From NCBI GenBank assembly GCA_033065855.1, contig JAVXUO010001561.1, positions 238,428 through 302,427 on the forward strand: a stretch of DNA of 64,000 bases, given 5' to 3'. The stretch's first letter is position 1, and every line of letters begins with the position of its first letter. Under the pieces are notes generated by a model. The model was not told where the DNA came from and did not search any database. It was given only the letters and a program-made list of their open reading frames with translations. A program made the translations under genes and the position numbers. Of this stretch, positions 5,112 through 64,000 are shown one piece after another. The stretch comes from Escallonia rubra (lineage: Eukaryota > Streptophyta > Magnoliopsida > Escalloniales > Escalloniaceae).

Positions 5112-5120
5112 AAAAGAATT

Positions 5121-8225: not shown

Positions 8226-8394
8226 ACGTCGCCCGGGACCGCACACCGCTCCCGCGATGCCCGTCACCCAAAGTCGCGCGCTACAGCCGAATGACTCGTC
8301 GCCGACGACCGCATTCCATCACTCCCAACTTTGTCACTACTACATGTTGCATTCATTATCTTGTTATGACAGGTACACTTAGCTCACATCCTGT

Positions 8395-8725: not shown

Positions 8726-8778
8726 GTCTCGTGCTGTAGGCACCGCGCCCATGCGGCACAATCATGTTACATGCTTTC

Positions 8779-43404: not shown

Positions 43405-44465
43405 CTGAGAAAGCTGAGTGTGTTTGCAACGAAGAAAAACTCAAGTTTCTTTATAGCCTTGAGTTGTATAAGGTCCTAAATTTTAGCTATTTCACACAAT
43501 ATTTTGCATATTTTTTCACTTCTATAAACGACCTTCATTTTTCCTCTTTCCCTTTGTCATTGAATATTTATGATTTAGACACTATTGTGGTCAATAAAAC
43601 CTCTGGCATGCCTATTCAACTAAATATTTCTCTTTCGTATACCTGATTTATCTTAAATCACTGTACACATTGAGTTCCCTAGTTAAGCTTATTGACCTTT
43701 GTACAGGGTGGAGTTGGCGTAAAAAGAAGTTTAGATGAGCTAGCTAGAGTTTATCTGAGAGACAAGTATTCCTAACCTCGGGAGTTCATATGATTTTTGG
43801 GTCATATGCAGACTCTAAACATGTATATCGGTCTTTAATTTTTATGATAAGCCGGTTAAGTCGTAAAGGAACCATTTTTATGTTTAGTACATGAATGCGG
43901 GATGGCAATGGCGCTCCATTTTAACCCCGAGGTCACAGGTCCATAACAAAAGCAACCCCTCCATCAAGGCAGGAGTAAGTCTGCCTTAGCAGTCTTACTC
44001 AAAAACAAAGTCTATAATTGCTTAGACTTACAATGCATTGGCGAGGGCCGTATATAGATTGCACGAGACCACTTGGACGATGAGTCGACTTTCTTGGTTA
44101 AACAAAAGTAGAGGGAGCAACAGTAAATTCTCTTGTACGTTGAGCCACCTTCTATGTCATTATAATTGAACTTTTAAGGCTTGTTGTGATTGCACATTCA
44201 TGCATTGTAGTTTCATCTTTATGCCTTCTTTTGGACGGAAGTAAATAGTTTGATGCAATATCATTTACTTCTTGGATTTCCTCTTAAGTAAGAGAGTGTA
44301 CTAAAAGATCGTGATTTCAACTTTGATATGTTAAGCTAAAAATGTTTTTTAGGTGAAATTTTTCTATCTTGCTATACAAGTTTGATGTCTACTCGGTACA
44401 CAAACTTGATAGAGATAGTAGTGGTATTGGTATCTCGGTGGCGGGAGGACACAGTTAAGTGCTAT
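43405..44465. other. Intergenic sequence, nothing recognised
   Basis: AT-rich, no family signature seen on either strand. Confidence 0.5.
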
Positions 44466-44650
44466 TGTTTTGCATTGTATCTTCCATGAGAAAACTGCTG
44501 AAGCTTTCTGCGTGTTGTAGTTGATCTCAAAAGGACCAAACTTCGCAGGAAGGAAAGTTATAATAAAGTGCAGTAGAAAACCCTCAGAGATATTCATAAC
44601 CAATCTAAAAGTTGAGAAGCCATATCATTCATCCTTAAAATACGCTTACA
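44466..44650 (-). pseudogene. Copia gag shred
   Basis: The minus strand reads M-N-D-M-A-S-Q-L-L-D-W-L, then ISEGFLLHFIITFLP and FGPFEINYNTQK. This matches the pattern of the UBN2-type copia gag (M-A-S-Q-L-K-x-L, then L-x-x-x-L-L-x-H-x-x-x-x-S-L-P, then F-K-V-x-Y-N-x-Q-K). One frame break occurs near 44605. No other part of the element lies next to it. Confidence 0.6.
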
Positions 44651-44772
44651 AACACCACTGGATCAACTGTACTAGAGCGTGACCATTTTAGTGATAAAAG
44701 TAGTAGCGTGTGCCTTCGAAGAGCCCTTAAACTACTCTTCAACATAAGTAAGGTACATCTTAGCATTTTCTG

Positions 44773-45874
44773 AGTACCCTGAAACTACCATAAGGGCCTG
44801 TAAAGTCTCACTTGAGGGTCTTAAAGTTTAATTTTTACACATAAGGACCTGTAAATCCAAAATTGCAACAAGTAAGGGCATCCATCCAAATTCCTAACGA
44901 TTCAGCCATTTCCGTTAGGGGTAATTTTGGGGTTCCATATTTGAAAAATCTCCTTGGGGCAGAAAAAATAATAATAACAAAATTCACGAGAAAACACAGG
45001 GCTGAACCCGCCAACAGGAACCCGCCCTCTCTGCCCGACCCGCGCGTGACCCGCCCGCGCATCTCTTCCTTTAACGAAGCCAGTATCCATCCTAGACCCG
45101 TAACTCGTAACCCGACCCATCCACCCGACCTGCACACTGCCCCTCTCTCCCTCTCTCCCTCTCTCAACCCTAATCCAAAAAAGCCCTAATATCTCTTCTC
45201 CGCGCTGCACACTTTGGCGCCGCCGCCGCCGCCCTTACAGCCTCACTGCCGCACCTCCCCATCGCCGGCCCTAAGCCCCGTCGCCCTTCATCGGTTGCTG
45301 CTTTTTTCACCGAAATCTCCCCACACATAACACCCAAACTGGCCCCTCTTAAACCAGCCAATCGTCGCCCCTTCCCCCGCCACCACCCGCTTCGACCACC
45401 GCCTTCTTCCCTGGGCACCATCAATCGACGCCACACACACACACTAGCACACACTCAAATCGTCCCATATTCACGCATCGCCCACCACACACACCAACCA
45501 CCGCCATTTCTAGCCACCACCCCTTTTCCCGGTCACCGCCCTCTTCCACCCCAAATTTCTTTTGTCGCCATGCTGCCACCATCGCAACCTAAACCCGCTA
45601 CTGCCCCACCATCCTTCACTCTTCCGAACACCTCCAACAGGCAGATCCGGTGACGGTAGTGATTAGTAGGGATGGTGCTAAAAGTATTGTTAATAGGGAT
45701 GGTGACGACATTATAAATTTGTTCGGACAAAATTACCCCTGACGGAAAAGGCTGGATCGTTAGGAATTTGGACGGATGTACTTACTTGTTGCAAATTTGG
45801 AGTTACAGGCCCTTATGTGTAAAAATTAAACTTTAAGACCCTCAAGTGAGACTTTGTGGTAGTTTCAGGGTACT
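44773..45874. mobile_element. MULE-like element with about 155-bp terminal inverted repeats
   Basis: Left arm 44773-44931 and right arm 45726-45874 are inverted copies (AGTACCCTGAAACTACCA outer end; AAGTTTAATTTTTACACATA in the middle; CCGTTAGGGGTAATTTTG inner end). The interior is about 800 bp, GC-rich, and looks like plant gene leader and first-exon sequence (ACCCTAATCC, then GCCGCCGCCGCCG). It has no transposase. The long TIRs suggest Mutator type, but no 9-bp duplication was found; the outer flanks may have been altered. Confidence 0.75.
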
Positions 45875-46907
45875 AACGTGTATTTGACTCTAACAATAAT
45901 CAATCACGTTACTACCGAAAATCCACATGATGAAAATAGTTAAAGTATTGTTGAAAAGATAAAATAAATTGAGTGATAAACAATTCATTTATATGGAAAA
46001 AGTAAATACACAAAACAGTTTCTAAATGAAAATTTAATATATCACTTATAACATTCCGTTGGACTGGTTATTAACATAAAAGTATTTTTTTTCTCCCTTA
46101 GCAACTTGGAAATCATTACAAGTAACATGAGTACGAATTATATCACCTTTGGGCATAAAATAATTTTACCACGCAACTTATTATTTCCTTTTTTTCCACT
46201 TAAAAATTTAAAATATAATCTTGCGTTAGGCTGATTAATATTTTATTTAGTGAGCGTAACGTGAGGTGGCATTTATCATTATCTCGAGTTATTAACAACT
46301 ATAAACTTCTATTGGGCCACTTACTGGCAAAATAAGTAAGAACCACTAGTTTATTTTCAAGTTCATTTTATTAGTCTAAACGTGCCAAACCAATCATAAG
46401 GTTTTTGCGTGACTCGTGATTTTAAACTAATTCTTGAAATTAATAACAATATTTGTACTTTATTAACATAGGTATCCCAACATTATAAGCCAATATTACA
46501 ATATATATGTTATCACTAATAACATATCAAATAAACAATTTAATACGAATATGTTATTAAGGCGGGTTTTGCAAATATTATATTGCAAGGTCTAATTGAA
46601 TACACAAGCCTTTCTCAAAACCCTTTTTTCCCCCCTTTTTTGAAGTGGCCAAAACATCCCCCAATTCGGTAGCTACAAGTCCCTTTTGAAGAGGCCGAAA
46701 AAGGCCCAAATTGTTGCCCAGAAAGGCCCAACTCAGCAGGCCGATGTACGTCCAATTTGCTGCTGGGCCATTTAAAAGATCACTATCAGGCCACAAAGGC
46801 CAACTGCTTCCGCCCAATCTCGTTGGGCCATTCAACAGACCACCATGAGGCCACACGACCAACTTTTCTAGCCTAATTTTGCTGGGCCGAATAACATGAC
46901 ACCAACA
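45875..46907. other. Intergenic sequence; repeated GGGCCATT-type phrases at the right
   Basis: Mostly AT-rich. At 46690-46890 there are loose repeats of GGGCCATTNAANAGANCACNATNAGGCCACA type, which give a 113-codon minus frame by chance. No family recognised. Confidence 0.45.
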
Positions 46908-48160
46908 TAGAGTTGTCAATGGGCCGGGCTTGGGCCGGCCCGGCCCAGGCCCAGCGGGCCTCCAATGAAATCGGGCCGGGGCCGGGCCTCACAAATGAAA
47001 AACGGGCCGGGCCGGGCCGGGCCTAAAACCTGGGATATATGGGCCCAGTCCAAGCCCAGGCCCTAGGCCCAATATTTAGGGCCGGGCTTGGGCCGGGCCC
47101 GGGCCCAATCCAATTTTTTTTCCCTTTCTTCCCAACTTTTTATTATAAAGACTTCTTCTTCAACAAATGACAAAGTTTTTGTAAACGGACCATTGAGTAT
47201 ACAATCACTTTTTCACGAATTAACCCCCTTTCGAAAAGGCAAATTGATGTTGATTGACCATTAACCACGGATTAAGTACAAAAACTAGTTGTTCTAACCC
47301 ACACATACTGATTTTAAGTGCAAAATTCAATCTCTTTCGTAATATGGTGTAAAACCTGTAAATGTCAAAGAAAAATAGAGTAGATCAAACAAAAAAAATA
47401 ACGAGATCGATGAAGATAAAATAACATCTTTTCTTGTTACATTCAAATTCTTTGGTCATTTAAGAAACCCTCCACTTCAATTGATTAGAGTGGTAGTCAT
47501 GGCTGTCTTGAGCTTGTGGAAGGCAGCCTCATGGAAGGCAGCCTCAGCTTCTGGCCTCTAATGAAATGCATTCTTCTTAATGAGCTCAGTAAGGGGTTTG
47601 CTTATGACCCCATAACCTCTTGCAAGCTTTCTTTAGTACTGTGTCAGCCCAAGAAATCCCCTAAGGGCCTTGACATTGGTTGGTCTAGACCAAGATTTCA
47701 TACTTTTGATTTTTTCTTGGTCAGCTCCCACCACCTCAGCAGAAATAACGTGGCCCAAGTGCTTAATGTGTGTACTGGCAAAGGTGCACTTGCTCCTTTT
47801 GGCAAACAGTAGATTAGCCCTTAAAAGGTCCAAAGCCAATCTTTGGTGCTTTCCAAGCTACTGCTATAAACAAGGATATCATCAAAAATTTAGGGGGAGG
47901 GCTAACGGGGCCGGGCCGGGCCGGGCCAAACCCGGGCCAGAACCGGGCCAGTTTCGGGCCGGGCCAGAAACGGGCCGTTTCCGGGCCGGGCCGGGCCGTG
48001 CTTTTTCCCAGAATTCTTTGGCCTGGTCCAGGCCCTGGCCCCAAGCCCAAATCTGCAGGGCCGTCACTGTTCATCTGCCGTGCCGGGCCAGCCCGGGCCA
48101 GAACCGGGCCGGGTCGGGCCAGCCCGCGGGCCGCCCGGCCCTTTTGACACCTCTACCTAA
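46908..48160. mobile_element. GGGCC-rich element(s) with TAGAGTTGTCAA / TTTGACACCTCTA ends
   Basis: Two arms rich in GGGCCGGGCC (46915-47110 and 47905-48145). The outer ends TAGAGTTGTCAATGGGC and GCCCTTTTGACACCTCTA are inverse versions of each other and look like ends of a common plant hAT-type non-autonomous family. About 790 bp lie between, including a Gypsy reverse transcriptase fragment. It could be one element with cargo or two separate ones; no clear 8-bp duplication was seen. Confidence 0.5.
47500..47893 (-). pseudogene. Ty3/Gypsy reverse transcriptase/RNase H fragment
   Basis: The minus strand reads F-D-D-I-L-V-Y-S-S-S-L-E-S-T, then LLRANLLFAKRSKCTFA, IKHLGHVISAEVV and TNVKALRGFLGLTQYY, and then pieces of the S-K-P-L-T-E-L-I-K-K-N-A-F-H stretch in shifted frames. 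This order, from just after the catalytic Y-x-D-D to the connection region, is diagnostic of Gypsy pol. A short duplication (GGAAGGCAGCCTCATGGAAG) near 47518 adds to the damage. It starts right at the end of the right GGGCC arm, as if carried as cargo. Confidence 0.85.
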
Positions 48161-48177
48161 ACGTCAAGGCATCCTTC

Positions 48178-50867
48178 CTAGTCCACGACGTATATTTGAG
48201 CACCTCCAAGCGAGCAATGTAGTCCATGTACTTTGAGGACGTAAATCCCGCAATCGTGACCGTTATATTGCTTTGGTCGGTCCTTTATCATCACGACCGT
48301 CCAAGGCTCCCCCGATGGCCGTTCGCACGCTAGCGAGAGGACAATAGTCTGCATCCAACAATAAAAACGAGAATCAAGCCTATGTAACAAGAAGAATATA
48401 CTATGAGCCAAGGTCAAAAAATAAAAACTAACCACTAAAGTGATGTACTCACTGTACATTTGTGCCAGCAGCTGTCCAGACTCGCCTTCCCTTAGGCTAT
48501 CGTATATGTGAACCGTTATGTTCGCTGGATGGAGAACTAATAGGAACCAGTGGTTTGCATGATGACAAGGTATCATGATAAGGTTCGCATCAGCAGCGTG
48601 ACATTGATAGTTTGTGTTCATCATGCCTAACACGTTTCCAGCTGGTTTCCACTTACCCCTACCGGCCCCTCGCCTCCTCCATTCTGTGAATTCCCTCACC
48701 GTTAATTCCACAAAATGAGTGGGATACATGTTAAGCTTCAAATATTCAGAACGGTTAAAATGTAGCTCTCTAATCCGGAGCAGATCTATGTAAGCGTTCA
48801 TGACAAAATTTGAAATATCTGTCTCCGGCGTCAACGTTCTGATATCCTCATGACCTAGGAATGTCGCAAGAGGAAAGTCTGTTGAATCGACAGACTCATG
48901 CCCGAAGTAGTGCCGGTCGATCCAACCTATCTTGTCCGGCCTCAATGGCTTCGTCGCTTGTCATTTGTCCGACCGGATGCTTGGGCACGAGGCCTAGATT
49001 CCTACTTGGGGAACCTGACTCTGGCGCTGAGAGTCGTACGCGTCAGGAGTCAAGTGACTATACGGCTCCCAGAATTCATAGCTCTGCGGCAAAGACGCGT
49101 CAGAAGGCAAGTGACTAGACGGCTCCCCCACCTGACTCTGGGGCTGAAAGTTGTACGCGTCAGGCGCTGAGTGACTAGATGGCTCCCCTTGGTAACCCCG
49201 GTACGCAACACTGAAGTTGTGAAGATTAGTCTTGTACCTCTCAATGGACCTCTTGAGACTGACAGGAGCCTGCGCGACAAACCAGTCAAACGACTCCAGC
49301 TGATTGAACACCTCAGTGCCCTGGTCAACCTAAAAAACATGCATAGAAAAATCACCGTCATCATTTCAGGCATTGTCGATAAGGTGCGCAAATGAATATT
49401 GAAACAACACTAGGGTGACTTACAATGTTCAATGCCCAGAACTGGTCATAGAAATCACGTGGCGCATACGATGTCTTCGTTGGCTGGGAAGGGCGATTCA
49501 CCCGCGTGCGCGTCACCTTGAGAAACCATTGCAGGTACTCCTCAAGACTGGTGCCGTCGTGCTTGAGCGATACAAGGCTACCATACGTTTCTTGCCAAGT
49601 ATTCCACTATTCGACCTCATCGCTCAACAAATTCAAGGCATCAGGCACCTCGAATTTCGGCCCTCGAACACACATGTATGGCCGCATGTCTACAGGGGGT
49701 TTTGGTATCCCTTGTAGACAGCCAGCTTGCTTCATGGCTCAATCGGGCATCTGAAACTCACATACTTCGAAGTGAATAAGCGGCACCCGAACCAAACCTG
49801 CCAGCACGTACGATACCGAAAGTTGCCAACACCACTCATCTAACCGATGCATCACCTTGCCATATGGCTGTCACGTCACCTGGGGTGCATCCAGCATATC
49901 TAGTTCCCCCCGATAGAGCTGTAGATGGTGGTGAGGGTTTACCCGTCTCTTCCGGTTGGTCTCCGGCCCCCAGGCCCACACCCTAGGCCATATCTCATCG
50001 GAATATTCCCGCGGTTGTGGACGTCGCGTGGGTAGCCTCTCATAAGACCAAACCTGTGAATGCAAACATTATATGGAATTAATAATTAATCACGAATACT
50101 TTGACACGTCAAAACAAGAATATAAATGCTCATACCTGTAATAGAGTCAGGCAGGCGGCAATAGACTTGGCATCCAATCTCGTAGCCTTATGTAGTGCTC
50201 GATATAGGTGCGCAAGAACAGCTGAACCCCACGAATACGAGTATACCTCCTCAAGATCCTCCAAGAACACCATATACTTCGGATGCACCGTGTTTTTCGA
50301 ATGCGTCGGAAGTAATATGGCTCCAATAATATACAGAAGGAATGCCTTCGTATTCATCACGAAATCATGAAGAGTGTATTCATCCGGTAGCACGCCGTAC
50401 TGCTCTCTCAGCCATTTAAGTTTGATGCCATTAGACGTAAGAGCTTCCCTCGGGATTCCCGAGAAATACTGCCTAGCCATCTTTGCTATGGATGCAGACG
50501 TTTTGCTCCAAGTAATGGGTTTGCCGTGACATGGGATTCTAAGTATAAATCCGACGTCCTCTAATGTAATAGTCATTTCACCAAACCGGAAGTGAAATGA
50601 GTTCGTCTTGCCCCTCCATCATTCAACTAGAGCGGATATAAGGCAATCGTCATGCCGAGACCAAATCCCGCAATCGGTGAACATGGCCAAATTTTGACGG
50701 TGTAATAGTTGTATTTGTTCCTCGTTCAGTACCCACTCTTCGAGGTGAGTTGTGCTTTGAATTGTTTCCAAAACACCTCTATCGACACCGTCAAATACGT
50801 ACCTCGCGAAGTGGTCATCGTCATCGTATATGATTGATGTATCATGAGGTCCGGGGTTGAAATCCAT
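48178..50867 (-). pseudogene. PMD + Ulp1 (C48 protease) transposon-type gene, decayed
   Basis: Four exons are readable on the minus strand. Exon 1 (50867-50136) holds the plant mobile domain: I-W-S-R-H-D-D-C-L-I-S-A-L-V-E, a stop where the family has Arg (before W-R-G), then GEMTITLEDVGFILRIP. Exon 2 (50053-49424) continues WSYERLPTRRPQ and V-W-A-W-G-P, with three stops. Exon 3 (49329-48453) has an S/P/Q-rich linker with one stop, then the protease domain with IPCHHANHWFLLVLH (catalytic His) and V-H-I-Y-D-S-L (Asp). Exon 4 (48348-48178) has the Q-x(n)-C pair in Y-N-G-H-D-C-G-I-Y-V-L-K. Introns start GT and end AG. PMD proteins fused to Ulp1-like proteases are known from Mutator-type transposons; here the damage makes it a relic. 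Its 5' side faces the hairpin array. Confidence 0.85.
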
Positions 50868-51494
50868 ATCTCTAAGAACAAAATATAATCGTAAACCAAC
50901 TTAACGTCCATAATATTTGCATTCCAAAAATATAACCGGATCTTAAACCTAGCTTACCAACGCGTTAGCAATAGTAATTATCTCATTATTTCAATGTATT
51001 AAAACAATTGCTCACTTCCCACCACTCCGAACGCTTAATTACTCTACTTCCCTAAAATTTAGAGCCAACGTGGCAATTTACCAATATACCCCCTGATGGC
51101 CGCTACACCACCAACACCACAAAATCGCTTTAAAACCACTTTTTAAATGTATTACGTCAATTATATACCAAATATTTCCTCAGGGTATTTTAAGGGAAAA
51201 AGTTACCAAAACACCCCAAACTTATGCAAAATACCCCCTGACAGCCATCGCCCCAACAAACATCTCAGAACAACTGGAAAAATAACTTTCTGGGTGTCTT
51301 ACACCCCTTCCCGAACTAAAAGTAAGTCGGAAAATTTTACAATGTTAAATTACCAAAATACCCCCGCTGAACGACTCGTGACCGAAATGCCCCCGGGGCA
51401 TCATTAGCACCCTAACGCCCCGCAATCAGCTTCAAAACAACATTTCAGGTGTTTTACTTACATTTCTGGACTAAGAAGTCCTTTGAAAAACTTT
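50868..51494. other. Upstream region of the PMD-Ulp1 gene
   Basis: Contains repeated phrases of the AAATTACCAAAATACCCCC type about every 90-180 bp (51070, 51210, 51350, 51430), perhaps terminal or subterminal transposon sequence. No gene. Confidence 0.5.
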
Positions 51495-51728
51495 ACCGGG
51501 AAAATTAACAAAACACCCCTCTCGGGGTGGCAAATTACCAAAATGCCCCTGGCTTCAGAAAATCTCAAAAGTACTTTAAAATGCTATTTTAAACTTCCTG
51601 AAATCATTCTTGATCTAAAAAGTATTTTACAAAAGTTTCGCCTAAAAATCTCGAACCGATCTCCGAATCGAGCGCTTATAAGCCCGTTCGGCGAAAAAAA
51701 TAGATAACGGCTTCGGAAGGGCCCGTGG
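51495..51728. repeat. Direct repeat, copy 1
   Basis: About 230 bp (CTCGGGGTGGCAAATTACC to TAACGGCTTCGGAA) matched by 54115-54346 in the same orientation, with perhaps 10-15% difference. Together the two copies bracket the hairpin array and the EDR2-like exons. Confidence 0.9.
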
Positions 51729-51759
51729 GGGCCACAAAGAAAAAATGGAAGGCCACAGA

Positions 51760-52420
51760 GAACCGCAACTCCTTGCGGTTCGGGGGTGGGGGGGCCATGC
51801 ACGAGAAAAAAAAAGGATACGCAAAAGAAAATAAGAAAACAAAAAAAGACACGGGGGTGGGGGCCACGAATAAAAAAGTGGAAAGCCACAGAGAACCGCA
51901 ACTCCTTGCGGTTCGGGGGTGGGGGGGCCATGCACAAGAAAAAAAAGGATACGCAGAAAACAAGAAAGCAAAAAAGGACACGGGGGTGGGGGCCACGAAG
52001 AAAAAAGTGGGAAGGACAATGAACCGCAACCCCTTGTTGCGGTTCAGGGGTGGGGGAGGAAGGGGTGGGGCCACGAAGAAAAAAAGGGAAGGACAGTGAA
52101 CCGGAACCCCTTGTTGCGGTTCGGGGGTAGGGGCCCACGGGGGTGGGGGAGGAAGGGGGTGGGGGGCCCACGGGGGGTAGGGGCCATGAAGATGGGAAGG
52201 ACAGTGAACCGCAACCCCTTGTTGCGGTTTGGGGGTGGGGGAGGAAGGGGGTGGGGGCCACGAAGAAAAAAATGGGAAGGACAGTGAACCGCAACCCCTT
52301 GTTGCGGTTCGGGGGAGGAAGGGGGTGGGGGAGGAAACGGGTGGGGGGTGGGGGACAGTGAACCGCAACCCTTGTTGCGGTTCGGGGGTGGGGGAGGAAG
52401 GGGGTGGGGGCCACGAAGAA
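51760..52420. repeat. Tandem array of palindromic GAACCGCAA...TTGCGGTTC units
   Basis: Seven units, each a G-rich spacer (GGGGGTGGGGGCCACGAAGA) plus a 22-25-bp hairpin. Hairpins lie at 51760, 51893, 52021, 52098, 52205, 52286 and 52360. Spacing is 75-130 bp because spacer lengths vary. Both hairpin arms are kept in nearly every copy, while loops differ (CTCC, CCCCTTG). Confidence 0.93.
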
Positions 52421-53398
52421 AAAGAACATTGCATGCAAACTGTTAGACAAAGACAGGAATGGCAAAAAGAACATTGCATGCAAACTAACATAATGTTTTG
52501 GATTGCTTTTGATCTTTCAAATACAATTAGAACACTAAAGACCAAGATTTAGGCTCCTATGCCTTTGGAATAAAGTAGAGGAACCAAGTAATTCCTTGTT
52601 CTGTTATTGGATAACCATGGATCGTTGTCTGCTCATTTATTCAACTTTTGGTCGATTCCAACGGTGGAGATGATTCATCTTGTCCCTTATGATTCAAATT
52701 TGAGATCAATTCTGCTTAGCCTTACTATAAGACTAAGCTATTTGGGTTTCAGCCACACGAACCCGTTTCTTCCCCTCTCACCTATCTTAATTTATTCTAA
52801 TAATGCTTTTCTAGAACTTAGACCTTCTCCGTTTCATGTTATAAGTTACAAGCTCTACGCATTTTTCCCTTCTTAGATTTGTGTGCATAGACAACGTTTG
52901 TTTGTATATCTGTGAATATTATCATGCAAGTTGGAGCTTCGAAAGTGTTCAGTTTTACATTGAACATTTAGGAAGTTGGTTTGAGGTGGGGACCAGTGAG
53001 GCATCACCCTCCCACCTTGAGTTAAGCTGAGAATATCACCTGACATAAATTCCTAATTTGGTATAAGAGTGTTCTATGGAAGTTTAAAACCAAAAGTCAA
53101 TCTACGCTTACAGTTTCTTGAGATTGTCTAGCTGAAAGGTCTAGAGGTAGAACAGATTGATGGGATGTACTTAAGCGGGCAGTTACTTCCAAAAATGTTA
53201 TTTACCTTGCATGTCAGTTTCCTGGATACGGAAAAATAGTTTTACAAGATTAAATGTGGTAATTCCTTCAATTATACGTATATCGAAAAAATGAGATAAT
53301 TCGGCGAATTGCCGAGTAGTTGATGCGATTGGTTACTGATTGGGCTTTATTGTGATTCTATTCAAGCTTAGCTATTTAATGAACTTATCTTTCTTCAG
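52421..53398. other. Intron-like sequence upstream of the EDR2-like exons
   Basis: AT-rich, intron-like, with a 48-bp tandem duplication at its start (AAGAACATTGCATGCAAACT at 52420 and 52468). I find no further recognisable exon, though the plus strand is open over 52607-52876. Confidence 0.5.
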
Positions 53399-53866
53399 GA
53401 GCCAGTGAGAAGTGCAATTATAGACTCCTGTATTAGGGTCACAGACAACGGAAGGGAAAGCTACCATAGAAAAGTATGCAGCTTACATTAAATTCCTTCC
53501 CAAACTTGAAAAAGGAACTTGTATGCAAAAGCAACACACATCTTTCAGTTCCTTTTGCTTACATTTTCCCTATTTTGCAGGTCTTCTTCATTTTCACCCT
53601 GTATAATACCTCTAATCACAATGATCAGCTTAAGGTGGGAATCACTTCTTATCATGAATGTTTGCTTGACTGTATAGTTATTGGTACTTTAGCCTTTTTC
53701 CATATTTGTAGTTGGGATATTGGTACTTTAGCCTTTTTCCATATTTGTAGTTGGGAGCCAGAAGTCCAAAAGAAGCTGCTAGATGGATTCGATCTCTACA
53801 AGACATAGCTCTAAAACCAGGGAAGAATTCAATGGGTAGTTCAAAGAGAAAGTGGCAGCCTTTCAG
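53399..53866 (+). pseudogene. Captured fragment of an EDR2-like PH/START/DUF1336 gene, three exons
   Basis: Three plus-strand exons with proper splice sites join in frame. Exon a (53399-53473, after TTCTTCAG) reads EPVRSAIIDSCIRVTDNG then R-E-S-Y-H-R-K. Exon b (53581-53634, after TTTTGCAG) reads VFFIFTLYNTSNHNDQLK. Exon c (53751-53866, after TTTGTAG) reads LGARSPKEAARWIRSLQD, then I-A-L-K-P-G and SSKRKWQPF, ending at GTAAAA. From memory this is the second half of the PH domain and the start of the linker to START in ENHANCED DISEASE RESISTANCE 2-like proteins, which bind phosphoinositides at membranes. Neither earlier nor later exons (START, DUF1336) are nearby. Repeat array sequence begins 14 bp after exon c, so this is a carried fragment. 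No stop codon lies within the exons. Confidence 0.75.
53680..53755 (+). repeat. 38-bp tandem duplication that doubles a splice acceptor
   Basis: TATTGGTACTTTAGCC and the following CATATTTGTAGTTGGGA occur twice in a row, giving two candidate acceptors (near 53711 and 53750) before exon c. Only the second gives the expected reading. Confidence 0.9.
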
Positions 53867-53884
53867 GTAAAAAATAAGGACAGT

Positions 53885-54070
53885 GAACCGCAACCCCTTG
53901 TTGCGGTTCGGGGGTGGGGGAGGAAGGGGTGGGGGCCCACGGGGGTGGGGGGTGAGGGCCCATGGGAATCGCAGGGTGGGGGGTGGGGGTGGGGGCCACG
54001 TAAGAAAGAGAAAAGAAAAAAGGGCAGGGGGTGGGGGGCAACAAAAAAAAAAAAAAAAAAGGAAGCGCAA
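53885..54070. repeat. Further hairpin unit and G-rich array downstream of the EDR2-like exons
   Basis: One complete GAACCGCAAC...GTTGCGGTTC hairpin at 53885-53909, followed by GGGGGTGGGG-type spacer and a long A-run (about 54043-54060). Confidence 0.9.
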
Positions 54071-54114
54071 CACCATCGTTGACTTAACATTGTTGAATTA
54101 ACATTGCAAAAATT

Positions 54115-54346
54115 TAACAGTGTAGAATTAGCTAAATACCCCTATCGGGGTGGCAAATTACCGAAATGCTCCCTGGCATCGGAAAATCTCAAAAGTGCTT
54201 TGAAATGCTATTTTAAGTTTCATGAATTCATTCTTGATCTAAAAAGTATTTTACAAAAGTTTCGCCCAAAAATCCCGAACCGGTGTCCGGATCGAGCGCT
54301 TAAAAGTCTGTTCGGCCAAAAAAATAGCTAACGACATCGGAATGGC
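54115..54346. repeat. Direct repeat, copy 2
   Basis: Partner of 51495-51728. Shared text includes CATTCTTGATCTAAAAAGTA and TTTTACAAAAGTTTCGCC. Confidence 0.9.
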
Positions 54347-55022
54347 GCAAATTCCGGGGAAACGGAACTTTCCAACATCCTAGGGTTCTCATAAAAGTTT
54401 CGCGCGAAATCGCGCTAGTTTGATATTTTAAATTACACTGCGAAGTTACAAGGTTTCCTGTATCAGTTGACCCCTTTCCAGTCCCCTGATATATATCTTT
54501 TAAAAATAACTAGGGTCTCTTATTTGCACTTTGGCAAAATCTAGCTCTAGATATTTTTTATAAATTCGTGAAAAATTCAAATTTTGACGCCCTACAAAAA
54601 TGACTATTTTTGGACTTCGAATGAATATTCGCTAATAAACGCTAGTTTAATCCCTAATTTCAAACTCTCACAAAACAAGAATTTTAGACTATGGTAAGAA
54701 CAATTTAAGCTAAACACAATTTAAACAAATCATTGGTAAGAACAATTTGAAATTAACATTGAATTATAAGAAAATTCAAAATACTTACTTGTTTTAACTT
54801 GATATATTGGTATCAAGAAAAATCCACCGATCTTCTAGCGTAAATTTTTTTCGTTTGTATTGTTGTGGAGATTATGTAAGTGAGATATGGAGTATGAAGT
54901 GTGTGTTGGTAAAGATGATGGGGAGTGGAAGAAAGGGTTCGGGGAGAAGGGTTTATAAAGAGGGAAAAATGAGGGAGAGAGATGAAAGAAAGCAGAGAAA
55001 CGTCGGAAAAAGGACGGGGAAC
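54347..55022. other. Sequence beyond the direct repeat, no gene
   Basis: AT-rich to 54850, then purine-rich (GGGAGTGGAAGAAAGGGTTC and GGGAGAGAGATGAAAG). On the minus strand this would be a pyrimidine-rich leader. I recognise no gene. Confidence 0.45.
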
Positions 55023-55058
55023 CGGGCACGTGGCAGGAGGGCCGCAAAATGGTGGGGG

Positions 55059-55352
55059 GACTGCAACAAGGTGTTGCGGATTTGGGGGGGGGGGGGGGGA
55101 CCGCAACAAGGCGTTGCGGTTTGGGCAGGGGGGACCGGGGGGGCATGTGGCAGGCAGGGAAGGGAGACTGGGGGACCGTCTGCCACGTGGCAGGCAGGAA
55201 GGGGGAGTGGGGGACCGCCCGCCACGTGGCAGGCAGGGAAGGGGGAGTGGGGGACCGTCGCATGCCACGTGGCAGGCAGGAAGGGGGCCAGGTAAAGGAC
55301 GGGTGGGTGTAAAAAAAAATTAATGATACAAACCGCAACTCTTAGTTGCGGT
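55059..55352. repeat. Outlying hairpin units (three)
   Basis: Variant hairpins at about 55060 (one arm imperfect), 55099 (GACCGCAACAAGGCGTTGCG) and 55331 (ACCGCAACTCTTAGTTGCGG). The last ends exactly where the 1.6-kb direct duplication begins. Confidence 0.85.
55143..55290. repeat. About 42-bp tandem repeat with a G-box palindrome (GCCACGTGGC)
   Basis: Four units share GGGGGACCG, then TGCCACGTGGCAGGCAGG and AAGGGGGAG; the first has CATGTGGC instead. CACGTG is the core of plant bZIP/bHLH binding sites (G-box). A further CACGTGGCAGG lies at 55027. Confidence 0.9.
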
Positions 55353-55839
55353 CATTTTTTATAATTTTCCCTCTGTCCGCCTGATTATGGGACAGACGTC
55401 CGCATGGACGGTAAATCAGCGTCCGACCCATAATTGGATGGAAGACGAAGTTCACTTTAAAAACAACGGGGATCCAGGCCACCAATGTCGACAACGTAGA
55501 TGGCCTGACTAAGCTGCAAGCACTATATTTTAACAGTATGTGTGAGCACATGTGTGGTGGGTGGGTGGATGTGTGGAGAGATATACATAGGCATATCCCT
55601 CGAACTACATATAAAATAAAATCATAAGACGTACAAAGCAAAAGGTTCAAGGTGCAATAGGTGATGCTTTTATACCGCACGACCAAATCAGCATGCAATA
55701 AAACACACCTAATAGATAAGGTGTCCGATAATGGCAGCAAAAATATACTAGTGCATGAAGTTGAATTTTGTGAAATATCTCATTCGAATAATTTATTGTC
55801 GTGCAGAAGAAAGATTATAAGATTGCACCCAAAAAAAAA

Positions 55840-55871
<32 letters not shown>

Positions 55872-56930
55872 ATCGCATGGGAGGTGGTTGGTTACTCTAG
55901 CTAACTGAAATCTCAGGGAGCGAATTTAATGTTGGGAAAATAGCTTTGTGTGTAGTTGTGCAGAAAATAATTTCGAAAATATACTAACATGCAAATGTTA
56001 ACGTTCCAAAAACAGAAGTAACGAAAGCAAGAAAATAATATGTACTAACTCACAGCAAAATTACAGAACAGCAAATGGAAGGCCAAGGCGTGAATTTGAT
56101 TCACTGTCCTTAAGACTTATTCGTCCCGCAACGGTGCTGACGGCTCTTAACGACAGTCTCCCAGGATACAACGGCTACGTCTGAAAATAGGAGCACTCCA
56201 AAATTTTAGACCCGTTGAACCACACAATGGAAGAACTCTTTCTTTTTCGGGCACAAAAAAAAAACGGACAGAATAGCAGAAAGAAAATTTTCGGGATTAA
56301 AAATTAATTAACTTATGTAAATGACTCGTTTTTATACACAGAGTATTTACTGGGGGGTGCAACTCTTCACAGAAAAAACTGCAAGCTGGAAAGGTCACAA
56401 CTTTTCGGAAAAGAAAATAAAGCCCAAGCCACGGACCGAGACGGGCGGCGCGAGCGTGTAGTGGACCTTGGGTCAACCTAGGTCCTCCCTCCTTACAAAA
56501 CATGGCTACCCCCAAGGGACCCAACCCTTAGCTCAAGACTAAGCCTTATAAGGAGACAACATTGGCTTTAATTCTTCAATGTGGGATTCTCTCTTCCCTT
56601 CAAGTTGAGCCACCAACTTCAACTTCAATTTTCTCATTCACTTCCCATTTGTTTTAAACATGTGAATATACCATGATCATCTATTCCAATAGATGAACAT
56701 GAATCAATTTGTTCCTAACCAAAATATGGTTTGGAACCCATTTAAAAATTGAGTCAAAATTACTTCTCCACAATGGGTTTAAAACCCAATTCCAACAATT
56801 AATTCAAACATAAGACTTGACTAAAGAAAAGAAAAAATTGAATTATGAAGGGTGTATGGAAATAGTAATCGTAAATAGACAAATCAAGCAAACATTGTGA
56901 AAAAGAACCGTGGAGATTGGTGAACACGAA
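55347..56930. repeat. 1.6-kb direct duplication, copy A
   Basis: From TCATTTTTTATA to TTGGTGAACACGA; matched along its length by 58888-60460 in the same orientation with few differences. It includes a (GAA)n tract, CCTTATAAGGAGACAACATT and TTCAATGTGGGATT. No confirmed gene; a minus-strand open frame (55342-55740) is present in both copies but has no family match. Confidence 0.95.
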
Positions 56931-58762
56931 ATTAAATTACAACGTGGCAATCAGACAGTTTTTCAATCTTTAACGAAATGCGTTGAAGATTTACCGTCAC
57001 AAAGGAAAAGTTAGGAAAAATAGTTATTGCGGATATAAATTCAGAATTTCAGATTTCAAAAGATCCAAAAAATTAGCATTGACACGTAAGATTTATATTA
57101 TAACTATTGCCGAAAATAAAAGAGGTGGGAATTGCCATATAATACTTCTTTTCTCCAAAATTTTAAGAAAATTACAGGTAGAATGTTTTTTGGGAGGGAA
57201 GCATTCTGGTTCCTTTTCACAAACTCCTACATATTCTTTGAACATATATATGACTCTAACTATGTGGTGGAAGATATTGCGTTCTAGATGTATATTTGGA
57301 AAAGAGGAAGTCCTTTGATTCAAAAGGCAAAAAAAAGAGAGAAAGAACAAAACAATTCATCCCTCCCATAATATTTATTTAACCATTGAAATTCATGAAT
57401 CCCAAACTTCTTTCTCCTTCTATAATAAGGGATTTCTTTGGTAAATTAAAATTTAAGTGCTGAAATCTTAAGCGTTGATTTTGTCAAACTAAAACTTAAG
57501 GACTAAATTTTTACCACTGACAAATGAAAACACGTCTGAAATTTGTTCCATTTTACAATTTTATGTATTGTACATGTAATGTATGTTTTTTGTAATCTTT
57601 TTATTGCTGAGATCACGTATAGTAGCTTATATAAAGTCTTTTCTTCCTTCATTCAAAGCCAAGGACTATAACACTCTCTTACAAAAAATAATGACAACAA
57701 CAAGAATAATAATAATAGACGGTTGCATGAACGTTGGTCCTAGCCTGGTTTATTACTTTGAGAACAACCACCTTCTCCCGCATAATTTCAAAAACCTTAT
57801 TGACCCCCCTCTGGTTGTTTTATTGGTTTCACATAGTTACTGGCTATCCTACACAACAACATGATTACTGCCGTTTTAATAGATTGTGACGTGATTGTCT
57901 TCTCAAGTCCTAGAATCCTACTTACTCTATGTCATCTCCAGCTCGTTAAGCTAGCCAATTGACCGTGAAGCAAAATTCATCGTTCCTACGAGTGTTAGAG
58001 AAAAATAAGAAATATCATCTCCTGTATCGAAATATAACTACCGATAAAACGGTATTATAATTAAAATATCGATGTTTATATGAACAAAGCATACAATTTT
58101 TTCACCTAAGAATTTCATCAAAATGGCTAAAATGCATAAGTAGAAATCATAATGGTGGGTGAAAGTGCTATTTACCAAGTAGATTGTGGAAACTAAAGCT
58201 AAACTATGGCCAAAGGAACCAATCGATGCATATTCAAAATGCTCAATTAAAAACAAAGGCAACAATTTAATCAACCTGAACAAAGGCATTGAACATGTGT
58301 CACTGCTAGAGATATTCTAATGATTACCAAACAAGAGTGTGCAGGGGAATATAAAACTCGATTTGATATGTTGTCATCGTACTTGTCATCCGCAAGTCTG
58401 AAAAATAAAAACAAAGTATATGTTTGGAAAAAAAAAATCAAATTCATTTTACATGTGTCTCTATTGTTTCTGTCTCTCTGGAAACTCCTCGCTAAATCAT
58501 TCTCGCTGTAGATCCGAACCTACTTTTTTAAAAATCCTTAAAAAATGAGCTTTCTTTTTATAAGGACTAAAATCACTTATTTTGGCTTTTTTTGTTTTTT
58601 CTCTTTCTTTGGGGGAAGGTGAAGGTCAGACCTGAATTCTTATTTTTATTAACATGCTAAACTCGAGGAAAGAGTATGCATATTCATGTCACTCCTTGGA
58701 TTGAGTCAATAACAACACTGGAGTGACATGAATTATTGTGTGCGCGCGCGCATGCATATATA

Positions 58763-58818
<56 letters not shown>

Positions 58819-58887
58819 GCTGATCCTTTGTGCTGCTAGCTTAAGTTAAGTAGCCATTGTGATCCGACAGGGATCTGATAACTTTTT
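56931..58887. other. Sequence between the two 1.6-kb copies
   Basis: AT-rich, no recognised gene or retroelement coding region. It contains a GCGCGC/(TG)n/(TA)n compound microsatellite at about 58741-58818. Confidence 0.5.
58767..58807. repeat. (TG)n microsatellite
   Basis: About 20 TG units, preceded by a CGCGCG and ATATAT tract and followed by (TA)n. Confidence 0.95.
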
Positions 58888-60460
58888 TCTTTTTCATTTT
58901 TTATATTTTTCCCTCTGTCCGCCCGATTATGGGACAGACGTCCGCATGGACAGTAAATCAGCGTCCGACCCATAATGGGATGGAAGACGAAGTTCACTTT
59001 AAAAACAACGGGGATCCAGGCCACCAATGTCGACAACGTAGATGGCCTGACTAAGCTGCAAGCACTATATTTTAACAGTATGTGTGCGCGCATGTATGGT
59101 GGGTGGGTGGGTGTGTGGAGAGATATACATAGGCATATCCCTTGAACTACATATGAAAGAAAATCATAAGACGTACAAAGCAAACGGTTCAAGGTGTAAT
59201 AGGTGATGCTTTTATACCGCACGACCAAATCAACATGCAATAAAACACACCTAATAGATGAGGTGCCTAATAAAGGCAGCAAAAAGATACTAGTGCATGA
59301 AGTGGAATTTTGTGAAATATCTCATTCGAATAATTTATTGTCGTGCAGAAGAAAGATTATAAGATTCAACCCCAAAAAAAAAAAAGAAGAAGAAGAAAAA
59401 TCGCATCGGAGGTGGTTGGTTACTCTAGCTAACTGAAATCTCGGGGAGCAAATTTAATGTTGGGAAAATAGCTTTGTGTGTAATTGTGCAGAAAACAATT
59501 TCGAAAATATACTAACATGCAAATGTTAACGTTCCAAAAACAGCAGTAACGAAAGCAAGAAAATAATATGTAATAACTCTCAACAAAATTACAGAACAGC
59601 AAATGGAAGGCCAAGGCGTGAATTTGATTCACTGTCCTTAAGACATATTCGTCCCGCAACGGTGCTGACGGCTCTTGACGACAGTCTCCCAGGATACAAC
59701 GGGTACGTCTGAAAATAGGAGCACTCCAAATTTTCAGACCCGTCGAACCAAACAATGGCAGAGCTCTTTCTTTTTTGGGCACAAAAAAAATGGATAGAAT
59801 AGCAGAAAGAAAATTTTCGGGATTAAAAATTAATTAACTTCTATAACTGACTCGTTTTTATATACAGAGTATTCACTGGGGGTGCAACTCTGTACTGAAA
59901 AAACTGCAAGCTGAAAAGGTCACAACTTTTCGGAAAAGAAAATAAAGCCCAAGCCACGGACCGGACCAAGACGGGCGGCGCGCGCGTGTAGTGGACCTTG
60001 GGTCAACCTAGGTCCTCCCTCCTTACAAAACATGGGTGCTTCCAAGGGGCCCAACCCTTAGCTCAAGGCTAAGCCTTATAAGGAGACAACATTGACTTTA
60101 ATTCTTCAATGTGGGATTCTCTTTTCCCTTCAAGTTGAACTACCAACCTCAACTTCAATTTTCTCATTCACCTCTCATTTGTTTTAAACATGTGAATATA
60201 CCATGATCATCTATTCAAATAGATGAACATGAATCAATTTGTTCCTAACCAAAATATGGTTTGGAATCCATTTAAAAATTGAGTCAAAGTTGCTTCTCCA
60301 CAATGGGTTTAAAACCCAATTCCAACAATTAATTCAAACATAAGACTTGACTAAAGCAAAGAAAAAATTGAATTATGAAGTGTGTATGGAAATAGTAATC
60401 GTAAATAGACAAATCAAGCAAACATTGTGAAAAAGAACCGTAGAGATTGGTGAACACGAT
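58888..60460. repeat. 1.6-kb direct duplication, copy B
   Basis: Partner of 55347-56930. The copies diverge at once outside TCATTTTTTATA and TTGGTGAACACGA. I found no terminal TG/CA, primer site or target duplication that would prove a retrotransposon, so tandem or ectopic duplication is the simpler reading. Confidence 0.95.
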
Positions 60461-60778
60461 AAAACTTGGGTTGGCATTGGTCGGGTGAAAAACGGGAGGC
60501 ATTGTAACCTGACCCACCCCGACCGACAATAGGAATCTTTTGTTTTTGGCACTTTTTTAGGCATTAGAACATAATGTATACCAAAACAGTCTATTTTCAT
60601 GATTTTTCATATTGATATTACTACATTGGTAATGGACGCAAATGAGGCCTATTATTATTTGAAATCATCATTGATATTTAACCAATAGCCCAAGATACAC
60701 GGAGAAGTCAAAAGTTAGAAAAAGGTGAACAAGATTTAGGAAAAATATTAGGGCAAATCCCAATAGCCCAAGATACAC
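60461..60778. other. Intron-like sequence downstream of the MED15 exon
   Basis: AT-rich. A short duplication CCAATAGCCCAAGATACAC (60683 and 60760) flanks about 75 bp next to the exon's donor site. Confidence 0.5.
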
Positions 60779-62398
60779 AGTCATCTGATGAAGCTGCTGC
60801 ATCTGGTTCGCTTGCAACTGTGCAGGCTGCTGCTGCTTAGTTTGCTGCAGCTGCTGCTGCTGCTTAGTTTGCTGCAGCTGCAGTAGCTGTTGCTTCTGAA
60901 TGAAGTGCTGCTGCATTTGCCGTTGTTGATACTGTAGCTTAAATTGCTGATTCTGCAGCATCTGTTCCTGCTGTTTTAAATGCTGGTGCTGAGCCATATT
61001 CGAATTTGACTGAAGGGGATTAAGGGTTGGCTGCAGTCTATTCATCCCACCTTGTGACGACAAGGGATTCAAATTTACCTGTTGGGGACCACTCACAGGA
61101 TCATGTTGCAGAGATCCAACAGCAACCTGCTGCAACGTATTCAATGCGTTATTCTGTCCTGGATCTAAAGTGGAACTGGGCAGTAGTGAATTCATCATGC
61201 TCTGCTGTGCATTTGAAACCCCCAACAACGGAGATAAAGAATTATGCTGCAAACTGTTCATAGTATTCTGCTGCATTGTTGCCACAGAACCCTGTAGGTT
61301 CATTGATTGCATCTGGGGATTCATTTGACTATCATGGTTTTGCATTTGAGTCATTTGAGGTTGTGGCTGTTGCATGGAGTGCATATTAAGTGCTTGCCCT
61401 TGCTGCATCGAGGAAACAGGCTTTCGGGGCCTATTTGAATGAAGAAAATTGGTAATTTGCTTCTCGTAGGCACCCAACTTGTCCTTGAAACCAGGTATTA
61501 CACTGCTCTTGGGAACTTGTAAGAAAGTTATGAGGCGCTCCAACATAGTCTTAAATATTTTAAGCTTCTCAAGTTGCTCGTTCTTTGGTTGCTGAGGAAG
61601 AGAATCATGCTGGAAATCAACAGATGCATCAGTGTAAAAGTAAAAAAAAATCAGAAGAAGAAATAAATAATAGCAAAACTATTTATCCAAAAGAAACATG
61701 AAGGAGTATTAGCAAAATGCACCAAAACTAATGCAAATACAAGCTATGTTACATGAACTCTTTAAAATGCGCAAAGTACCCGTGTCAGACACTCGGACAC
61801 TTTGGACATGGGTATGAGATAGAAATAACTAAGAAACAAGAATATCATAGAAATATTTCGCCGTGTCCCCTTGTCTTAAGGTTATGAAAAATAGACGAAT
61901 TCGACACTTGTACATGTATCTGACTCGTATCAAGTCCATGTAACATGGTGTATAAGTATGGTGTGCCCAGATGGACACCCATTTTTGCTAGAACATATAA
62001 ACCCCCTATAATGTATCCTATACACACACAAACATATAACGTGTATGGGCGGGCTTTCTTTGTTTCTTTCATTTCTCTTTCCATGGGTACAAAGACAATT
62101 GACCATCATTAGCCACAGATTTTATAGGCTGCTACAACTTTTGTCCTGCAGTGCGAATCCGCTTAAGAAGCAGCTTCTCTATCATTTAAGGTCATTGTCC
62201 CACATTATCCGGGGACAGCCCCTGACACGACCCACATTCAAAGAAGATGACATCCCCTTTCAATGACATGCTAAAGGCTGATTCAAAAAACATGAAGCCA
62301 TAAAAAACGTGATGACTGCTTACTTGCTGCAATTTACCAGCAATTTTCTGGTACATTTCACTTAGATCTGCCAGATACATATCCTTCATGGCTTTTAT
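60779..62398 (-). CDS. MED15: Mediator subunit 15 (MED15a-like), two internal exons only
   Basis: MED15 is the large Gln-rich tail-module subunit of Mediator that contacts activators through an N-terminal KIX domain. Exon A (62398-62324, 25 codons, between a TTGTAG acceptor and a GTAAGC donor) reads I-K-A-M-K-D-M-Y then LADLSEMYQKIAGKLQQ. Exon B (61609-60779, after TTTCCAG) reads HDSLPQQPKNEQLEKLK, M-L-E-R-L-I-T-F-L-Q and EKQITNFLHSNRPRKP, and runs into a long Q/M/N-rich tract (MQQPQPQMTQMQ and others). It ends L-H-Q-M-T at a GTGTAT donor. Both exons are open and in phase, and match plant MED15a order from memory. The KIX domain and C-terminal exons are not in view: upstream lies a LINE reaching the window edge, and downstream no exon was found for 15 kb. 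It is either a gene with long introns or a partial copy. Confidence 0.8.
61610..62323 (-). other. Intron between the two MED15 exons
   Basis: 714 bp with GT...AG borders. The middle (61780-61980) has GTGTCAGACACTCGGACAC-type text often seen in plant repeats, but no identified element. Confidence 0.65.
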
Positions 62399-62769
62399 CT
62401 ACAAGATAAATGTGACTAGTGTTAGGTTTCATTGCCACTAATTTAACATCATTGAAAACTGAAGGTGTATCCTCTTTAGTAGTTTGATCTCAAAAAAATG
62501 CAGATTAGATCGTTTGGCAACAAATGCATATTAAATGATGTGGCCTCCGAATAAACATACAACAAATGCTTACATAATGCAACTAAAACTCCTATATCAT
62601 GCGATTAAAGATCATGAAGAACCATATTTAATTCCTCCACTTACTCCCAAAACCCATCATTCTAAGCAAGTATAGTTATAGTTATAAGTTCTAATTCACG
62701 TGGTCGACTGGTCGTATGCTCTTTAAATATCCAACTTGTAAACCAAACCAGGTGCATGCACTGATTGCG

Positions 62770-64000
62770 CTCTAAGTCTGGAGCCGATGGATTCAAACTG
62801 CATCGCCTTCAACAAGCGCATTTTGAGTTTCCAGAATTACAGCAGTAATCACTTTCTGAAGATGGCACGTCAAGACCTTAGAAAGCAACTTGTGTACCTG
62901 CCAACTAAGTTTATTCCTTAATATCCCTTGCACAACCCTTTTTAGGTATCGAACAGATGAAGGTAGGGTTAACAATTCTTGTCATCCTTAATCACCTGCC
63001 AACAATGTTCATAAAAAGCCACATTTATCTCCTCCTCCTCAAAATGAGCTTCCAAGGTTGCATTAGCATCAGGACCAAGAAAACTAACAGCCAGTCTAAT
63101 CTGGGACTTGACAGATTCTCCTCCTGAAATAATTGCTGGTAGAACCCAAAATGGCCTCCTGAATCTTTGTCTCATCTAAGAACTCTATGCCATTGACCAT
63201 TATCGTCCAAATTTGACTTGACCTCTTATGCTTGCAATCTTATGGAAGAATTTCGTGTTTCTATTCCCCGCTTCCAGCCAAAGATCTCTAGATGTTTTAA
63301 GGCAGCAGATCTCCTCCGACAAGAATAGACAATTAGCTTACTCAAACCACGTTCACCTTCAAAAACATCAAGCTCATGGATGTAAGTCAAAACTCGAGCC
63401 AAGCTCAACTTCACCCTTCCGACCACTTCCGCATTCCATTTCTGCAAGTCATTCTTCAGCAATTTAATTTGCTGGCCAAGCAAAAGCTCGGAGTCCTTTT
63501 AAGTCATAACTCGCCCACCAAGCCCTAACCAACTCTAAAAACCCGACGCAAGAAGCCAAAAGTTCTCATATCTTAGTGAGGATTCGCCTACGCCAAGACC
63601 TCCACTAAAGCAAAGGCATGGGATCAGATATCACCGACAAGCACGCCTGAGTAACATTGCTAAACCTATTTTCCAACTGTTCCGGAATCAAAACTTTATA
63701 AATCCTTGTACAAGACAGATTCGTATAGAATCTTCATCCCAATGGTAGTATATAAAATTGAACTCCAGCATCTCCCGAGAGAATGAGTAACAAGTCTTTC
63801 TCTAGGAAGTCTAGCAACATTGAGGTCGCCACCAATACACACCAGTCTACTCCATGTGTGAAACCCCTCATCCACTCCAACTGTGATGTCATATTGTCCC
63901 TAACTTTAACAGGGCCGTACACAAAATATCCAACAGAAGTAATCATCCACCATTTAAAAAAGACAAGAAGCCGAAAAAGAGCCGTTAACATCAACATTTG
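62770..64000 (-). pseudogene. LINE/L1 remnant (endonuclease end to start of reverse transcriptase)
   Basis: On the minus strand, from the right edge: endonuclease residues W-C-V-L-V-A-T then G-G-D-L-N-V-A-R in the neighbouring frame (about 63830-63800); a helical linker ELLLGQQIKLLKNDLQKWN (63490-63430) and ARVLTYIHELDVFE; and the start of the reverse transcriptase (about 62965-62800) with KLLSKVLTCHLQKVI and T-Q-N-A-L-V-E-G. Many stops and frame changes. It stops abruptly after V-E-G near 62795, so the catalytic core is lost. It lies upstream of MED15 exon A, perhaps inside a MED15 intron. Confidence 0.75.

Follow-up and report, generated by a model that had tools for sequence, protein, structure and literature searches.

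The window analysed here is a stretch of 64,000 bp from the genome of Escallonia rubra (contig JAVXUO010001561.1, positions 238,428 to 302,427), and its features are located in Table 1. It contains a remnant of a Mutator-like element (MULE) carrying a PMD-Ulp1 gene, beside which a G-rich palindromic array is interrupted by a fragment of an EDR2-like host gene, related to disease resistance. A previous reading of this DNA made from its letters alone (hereafter, the sequence-only reading) had proposed a host-gene fragment captured by a Mutator-type element, and this stands, the donor having been found elsewhere in the same genome. It is highly probable that the capture took place within the array of one copy of the element, by microhomology-mediated template switching with an unlinked EDR2-like gene as donor.

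The three exons with GT/AG borders that had been read at the locus do join in frame, and encode 82 amino acids in total. By themselves, exons a-c matched the Pfam PH domain with an E-value of 0.0021, under the curated cut-off, and a search of the PDB with the 82-residue protein gave an unrelated protein first (0.05) and then pleckstrin PH domains (0.076-0.62). No relatives of this protein were detected in the searched collections of genome contigs and viral contigs, nor were its peptide strings found in the paper texts searched. Palindromic arrays had also been recognised on both sides of the exons; they are G-rich, and the right one extends over about 53873-54060. The pattern CCGCAACN{2,6}TTGCGG had 16 matches on both strands, at 9 places, all of them in 51763-55351 (0.03 expected), and six array palindromes folded as single-stranded DNA gave z-scores of −4.6 to −7.5.

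In the whole genome (566 Mb, 3222 contigs), the exon stretch matched two places, namely the window and the minus strand of another contig (C2239:323491-323919). This donor locus showed a Pfam match to EDR2_C (E = 6.7e-22) on the same strand as the exon match, while its first four exons, predicted and joined, matched PH (E = 1.2e-10). Of the PH, START and EDR2_C (DUF1336) domains expected in an EDR2-like gene, START went unreported when the donor was scanned frame by frame, a weak sign for a gene likely to be split into many short exons; the EDR2 gene of Arabidopsis is described as having 22 (PMC1955445). Given the PH and EDR2_C matches of the donor, the EDR2-like identity of the exons, which the sequence-only reading had proposed, is now a tested one. 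Moreover, alignment of the exons with the EDR2-like genes of the host, as that reading had advised, led to a different contig, so that the full gene is not contiguous with the locus in the window.

In the numbering of the reverse-complemented donor stretch (L003+L004), which is used throughout, donor exon 1 occupies 7511-7663 and is absent from the captured piece, which runs from part of intron 1 through exons 2-4 to the first bases of the intron following exon c. Fragment and donor differ by 31 substitutions in 1347 gap-free columns, 5 of them in exons; in addition, the fragment has 41 extra bases, 39 of which form a tandem duplication, and lacks 2 bases. Its GC content is 0.37, compared with 0.43 for the window. 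A search for further genomic copies of the block, another check that had been proposed, was run with the whole insert and found it near full length in the window and at the donor only, the donor being the sole such match besides self (13 of 13 candidates scored). The 14 genomic rows obtained comprised 11 of a repeat lying in intron 1, self, the donor and a 50-bp inverted match of the donor itself. Judging from these sequences, the fragment seems not to have moved again after its capture.

The site without the fragment can be reconstructed, as the fragment interrupts the A-run of one array unit. When the flanks were joined (52423|53873) and aligned with the intact unit at 52231-52314, all the aligned letters were identical, with a single gap of 3 bp. 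These 3 bp are also absent from some sibling loci of the family (L017, L022, L023, and L039) and, therefore, the capture may have cost the array no sequence at all. Among the 29 sibling loci fetched, 19 gave a best alignment with the joined flanks that spans their junction, although often loosely; the best is the uninterrupted unit of L025, with 107 of 114 columns identical. Of the 24 loci with a complete copy of the family repeat R1, 15 show a G-rich gap (589-1147 bp) and 9 do not; the five remaining loci were left out of the array comparison for want of a complete R1. No long low-G insert was found in any of the 15 readable sibling arrays by a test that is blind to short or G-rich inserts: the longest run of 100-bp windows with less than 20% G was 6 steps in these arrays vs. 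197 in the window.

At the left seam of the fragment the array is followed by inverted donor sequence, then by donor sequence inverted again and finally by donor sequence in direct orientation, after which the array resumes (tracts A, B, and C in Table 1). Consecutive segments overlap at the four switches by 5, 4, 5, and 4 bp, respectively, and in random joins of these same sequences microhomology of at least 4 bp occurred with a frequency of 0.016-0.024. When tracts A and B and the start of C were rebuilt from the donor, 92 of 92 window bases were reproduced. Regarding the direction of the change, 8 of the 11 additional genomic rows for the intron repeat were fetched; the eighth stops short of the inversion point and seven align with the donor unbroken across it, so the donor order appears to be ancestral and the inverted order derived. 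The donor has thus been retained, microhomology is present at each junction and the inverted tracts are templated, which are the signs by which template switching is recognised.

We infer template switching as the process; its trigger, its enzyme (polymerase theta or break-induced replication might, for example, be involved) and any role of array fragility would be part of the same proposal. According to it, one copy of this high-copy MULE would have suffered a DNA break or a stalled fork within its G-rich palindromic array, and the new strand would have left the array at the A-run, switching templates at short matches. Around 1.35 kb of the unlinked gene (part of intron 1, exons 2-4 and the first bases of the next intron) would then have been copied, followed by the adjacent 50 bp of the donor, twice and inverted (50 bp, then 23 bp of the same), before the strand returned to the array on the far side of that A-run.

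Several points weigh against this proposal. It concerns a single event in one genome, and at two of the four switches the shared bases form an A-run, which an A-rich unit readily provides. Recurrence does not support a break-prone array, since 0 of 15 sibling arrays hold such an insert in a test that would miss short or G-rich ones, and the idea that the array is a frequent site of capture was rejected on the same count. Furthermore, a simpler capture with a small inversion and duplication afterwards would leave nearly identical letters. In such a two-step history, which we consider unlikely, a plain donor fragment would have been captured first and the 50-bp inversion and the 23-bp inverted duplication would have arisen later in the element. 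It agrees with the confinement of the complexity to the left edge and with the 39-bp tandem duplication, another rearrangement relative to the donor. However, both inverted tracts are placed at the array junction and derive from donor bases directly beside tract C, and the four switches, including those with the array, all share 4-5 bp.

The A-run after the fragment might pass for a tail or for a short target-site duplication (TSD), as if the fragment were a mobile unit of its own (a Helitron, a nested Pack-TIR or a retroposed pre-mRNA), but this is very improbable given that the introns are retained and that inverted donor tracts at one end are unlike a transposon terminus. In addition, its ends form no inverted repeat with each other (263 of 500 shuffles reached the score of 6.0), and the genome search with the insert showed no near-full copy other than the donor and no copies with the same ends at other sites; Helitron, nested terminal inverted repeat (TIR) element and retroposition were rejected for lack of an inverted repeat at the ends and of a further near-full copy. 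Very little credence is likewise given to an assembly artefact joining array and donor. The array is indeed of low complexity and repeated in many siblings, but the 31 substitutions scattered over the fragment, the 39-bp duplication and the small indels are unlike a false join of donor reads and argue against a recent chimera. Finally, that a resident EDR2-like gene was cut by repeat expansion, as the open exons and native-looking splice sites might suggest, can practically be dismissed, as it is contradicted by the donor on another contig and by the array flanks rejoining without the fragment, and neither START nor EDR2_C was found in six frames over 43800-63701, in a scan of limited sensitivity to short exons that also missed the PH exons.

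The host element is, by its sequence, a Mutator-like transposon. Two full-length relatives were read, one on contig C1426 (about 485290-496860, ~11.6 kb) and the other at C988:619749-631813 (~12.07 kb), and both align with the PMD-Ulp1 region of the window. They have TIRs of 1247 bp (90.8% identity) and 1222 bp (92.7%), and the C988 relative is flanked by a perfect 9-bp TSD, while that of C1426 ends in TA repeats. The scan for transposase domains covered the C1426 relative, the window copy being without that half, and revealed the Pfam domains MULE (7.8e-31), FAR1 (2.8e-14), and SWIM (5.3e-5); the C988 relative aligns there at 94%. The identity of the window to the latter was 94% over 48150-51725 and 90% over 53942-55206, and positions 1962-5628 of that relative had no match anywhere in the window at an E-value of 1e-6. 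The copy in the window ends at 55352, ~40 bp before the tip of the family, where a different repeated sequence starts. It therefore lacks the left half and the right tip, and keeps a single TIR with its tip missing. The sequence-only reading had noted no obvious classical TIR, but TIRs of 1.2 kb are present in both relatives and their pair is missing from the window because of the truncation on both sides; an element without TIRs was rejected on these grounds and on the 9-bp TSD of one relative.

The same reading had regarded two 230-bp direct repeats as bracketing a mobile block. The repeats exist (51486-51722 and 54108-54346, 86% over 239 bp), but R-type repeats occur in at least five places in one full-length relative. 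This distribution marks R1 and R2 as internal repeats of the family rather than the ends of the element or of a mobile block, and their candidacy as element ends was rejected. The family is abundant: a first look at the genome, to be taken as yielding candidates or minimum numbers, gave 3393 candidates for the R2/5′ stretch and 975 for the PMD stretch, and among the best 40 scored for each, 39 besides self showed 90-96 and 97-98% identity, respectively. Both full-length relatives carry the G-rich array on their PMD side, and the other (transposase) side has no array but a gap of 386 bp. On this array-free side, the low-G gap of the sibling L043 measures 1063 bp rather than the usual ~385 bp, probably through insertion of other sequence. 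Both relatives also contain a second tandem array, with units of ~170 bp, beyond the Ulp1 end towards the transposase part (L065/L066, C1426:491451-492386; L067, C988:624211-625324).

The neighbouring gene had been identified as PMD-Ulp1, and this was confirmed by Pfam matches on the minus strand to PMD (5.5e-38) and Peptidase_C48/Ulp1 (2.6e-14). A TGA at 50621-50619 lies in the PMD reading frame, and the PMD piece gave a weak match to DUF1985 (3.1e-6), whose 27.6 bits fall below the cut-off of 35.1. From consensus signals, the arrays and the fragment would lie within a putative 5′-leader intron of this gene: GTAAGT at 54788, an acceptor at 50872 and TTGTTCTTAG just before the ATG, with a TATA-like box on the minus strand at 54959. 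GTAAGT was kept in 5 of 5 loci printed from the 29, and the acceptor string in 17 of 19, although these loci are very similar and hence little informative; GTAAGT lies in the TIR and is consequently present at both ends of the element. The fragment, antisense to the PMD-Ulp1 gene in this putative intron, is most likely an inert passenger. A function is unlikely because the copy is truncated, a stop codon interrupts the PMD frame and, apart from the donor, the genome search revealed no further copy of the fragment. Upstream of the putative PMD-Ulp1 promoter, 39-bp tandem repeats with CACGTG were observed at 55147-55287.

The motif of the array reappears in a palindrome ~40 bp from the MULE tip, with two types of stem, CCGCAAC/GTTGCGG and CCGCAC/GTGCGG, both mostly paired; the search pattern demanded outer ACCGC/GCGGT, so that the inner pairing is the informative part. 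Tips were found in 21 of the 29 loci (L016-L044), those of L031 and L043 being imperfect. Within the arrays, the strict A-type palindrome was absent from 9 of the 15 with complete R1 (L017, L023, L024, L027, L028, L033, L035, L039, and L041), and a perfect hairpin as a constant trait of the family was accordingly rejected. When tips and arrays were compared, A-type palindromes were present in the arrays of 6 of 6 loci with an A-type tip (L016, L018, L025, L031 with its imperfect tip, L036, and the window) and of two (L019 and L030) of the eight with a B-type tip (L019, L023, L027, L028, L030, L033, L039, and L041). This comparison covers loci having both array and tip, and excludes the array-free loci (among them L044, with an A-type tip) and eight in which no tip was found. 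The agreement is not used as evidence of co-evolution, as two subfamilies may explain it.

Other elements surround the MULE remnant. Adjoining its exact stop, the element at 46908-48155, which we take to belong to the hAT family, is rich in GGGCCGGGCC and ends in TAGAGTTGTCAA / TTGACACCTCTA; by eye, no clear 8-bp TSD was seen. On the other side, the MULE tip is cut at the edge of a direct duplication of 1.58 kb (55352-56929 and 58894-60459, 94%), whose sequence gave 766 first-look candidates in the genome, the best 40 of which were scored; on inspection by the usual criteria, these repeats do not look like long terminal repeats. An element of ~1.1 kb at 44773-45874, with 157-bp inverted ends (87%) and a GC-rich interior, is Pack-MULE-like in outline. 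Lastly, a glutamine-rich frame on the minus strand (60668-61546) had no significant match in Pfam and presumably resembles a MED15-type Mediator subunit.

Table 1. Location of the captured fragment, the host element and associated features (window positions).
Feature	Position	Strand	Basis or remarks
PMD-Ulp1-carrying MULE remnant: internal part and most of right TIR	48156..55352		Alignment to full-length relatives
PMD-Ulp1 gene region of the MULE, in-frame TGA	48181..50867	-	Pfam PMD, Peptidase_C48
Putative 5′-leader intron of PMD-Ulp1 gene, enclosing arrays and fragment	50872..54788	-	Consensus signals
R1, internal/subterminal repeat of the MULE family	51453..51722	+	Self-alignment; R-type places in full-length relative
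G-rich palindromic array, left part	51725..52423	+	Repeat and pattern searches
Captured EDR2-like fragment	52424..53872 (1449 bp)	+	95% including gaps to donor C2239:323485-324835
Capture tract A, donor 7939-7917 inverted	52419..52441	-	Overlaps: AAAAA (array), AACT (tract B)
Capture tract B, donor 7965-7916 inverted	52438..52487	-	50/50 identical; overlap with tract C: AACTA
Capture tract C, donor 7966-9316 direct	52483..53872	+	Shares AAAA with array at right edge
Older dispersed repeat of donor intron 1, captured along	52483..53020	+	11 further genomic rows at 72-84%; donor 7670-8503
Exon a (donor exon 2), PH domain	53399..53473	+	AG/GT borders, frame join, Pfam, donor alignment
Exon b (donor exon 3), PH domain	53581..53634	+	AG/GT borders, frame join, Pfam, donor alignment
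39-bp perfect tandem duplication across exon c acceptor	53679..53756	+	Not in donor
Exon c (donor exon 4), PH domain plus the next residues	53751..53866	+	As for exons a and b
G-rich palindromic array, right part, resuming the interrupted unit	53873..54060	+	Joined flanks align with unit 52231-52314
R2, at inner end of right TIR	54079..54346	+	Self-alignment; TIR extent in relatives
Palindrome near element tip, same motif as array	55333..55351		Pattern search; compared with relatives

The locus shares with the Pack-MULEs of rice and other plants an intron-bearing host fragment, a donor located elsewhere and a Mutator-like carrier (PMC8277862, PMC4858842, PMC13317346). It differs from them in that the fragment lies in the array of a large PMD-Ulp1 MULE copy, truncated on both sides, and is not GC-rich (0.37), whereas Pack-MULEs are reported to favour GC-rich sequence. 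A Pack-MULE has its fragment between two TIRs with a TSD; here the left half and the right tip of the element are absent, so the locus is classified as a gene-capturing MULE remnant and not as a Pack-MULE. About one third of the rice Pack-MULEs are reported to be multicopy (PMC8277862), and the genome search with the insert found no further carrier copies with the fragment, a trait that does not define Pack-MULEs.

A further parallel is offered by the single-copy Pack-TIRs of animals, which have been explained by microhomology-guided gap filling (PMC8277862, 2021). As in our case, a single-copy fragment lies in a TIR transposon, with microhomology at the breakpoints (1-36 bp, median 2, at one or more of them) and the donor retained; the present element, in contrast, is a plant MULE with four switches of 4-5 bp and two inverted tracts. 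In yeast, insertions at breaks include two sequences from one distant locus in inverted orientation, for which microhomology-mediated template switching has been proposed (PMC11724301), but here the event is natural, in a plant transposon, and its longest tract reaches ~1.35 kb.

With respect to the gene content, KI-MULE/KIU and other Ulp1 MULEs of Arabidopsis, grapevine, melon and rice also have an Ulp1-domain gene beside the transposase (PMC13317346, PMC2528002). KI-MULEs are described as non-TIR elements and the grapevine Ulp1 MULEs as having or lacking TIRs, whereas in the family studied here Ulp1 is found beside a plant mobile domain (PMD) and the TIRs measure 1.2 kb. The VANDAL MULEs and their VANC proteins offer another likeness, namely non-coding tandem repeats of the accessory genes that vary between copies (PMC5735166, PMC10398659), to which the weak DUF1985 match may be added. 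The targets of VANC are reported to be tandem repeats located in VANC and VANB introns and, for VANA, upstream of the gene (PMC5735166), and the array resembles them in its place beside the Ulp1 accessory gene, which we regard as a lead. VANDALs differ, however, in their degenerate TIRs, and the DUF1985 match is below the cut-off. It is a rather doubtful, though conceivable, proposition that, in a MULE family with TIRs, the PMD-Ulp1 gene is paired with the variable G-rich palindromic array of its leader region for self-recognition (anti-silencing), much as VANC is with its tandem motifs. If this were true, a further site of binding would be the palindrome close to the tip of the element, and the capture of host DNA would be a by-product of keeping a recognition array prone to breaks and slippage.

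The capture of genes by MULEs has long been known, and the present case is an unusually well resolved example of it. A study in rice recalls gap repair and stem-loops among the models of capture (PMC4858842), gap filling or fork-stalling template switching has been called worth exploring for plant Pack-MULEs (PMC8277862, 2021), and a 2026 review considers that the capture of unlinked gene pieces by DNA transposons may follow a yet undiscovered mechanism (PMC13317346). Among the papers listed by open-library searches on capture and microhomology, titles and the openings of abstracts revealed no plant MULE case resolved to this degree, which is no proof of absence. For one event in the E. rubra family, a high-copy family within one genome, donor, empty site and all the switch points are now defined at single-base resolution. 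Therefore, the question of how plant MULEs capture genes becomes testable through more seams of this kind.

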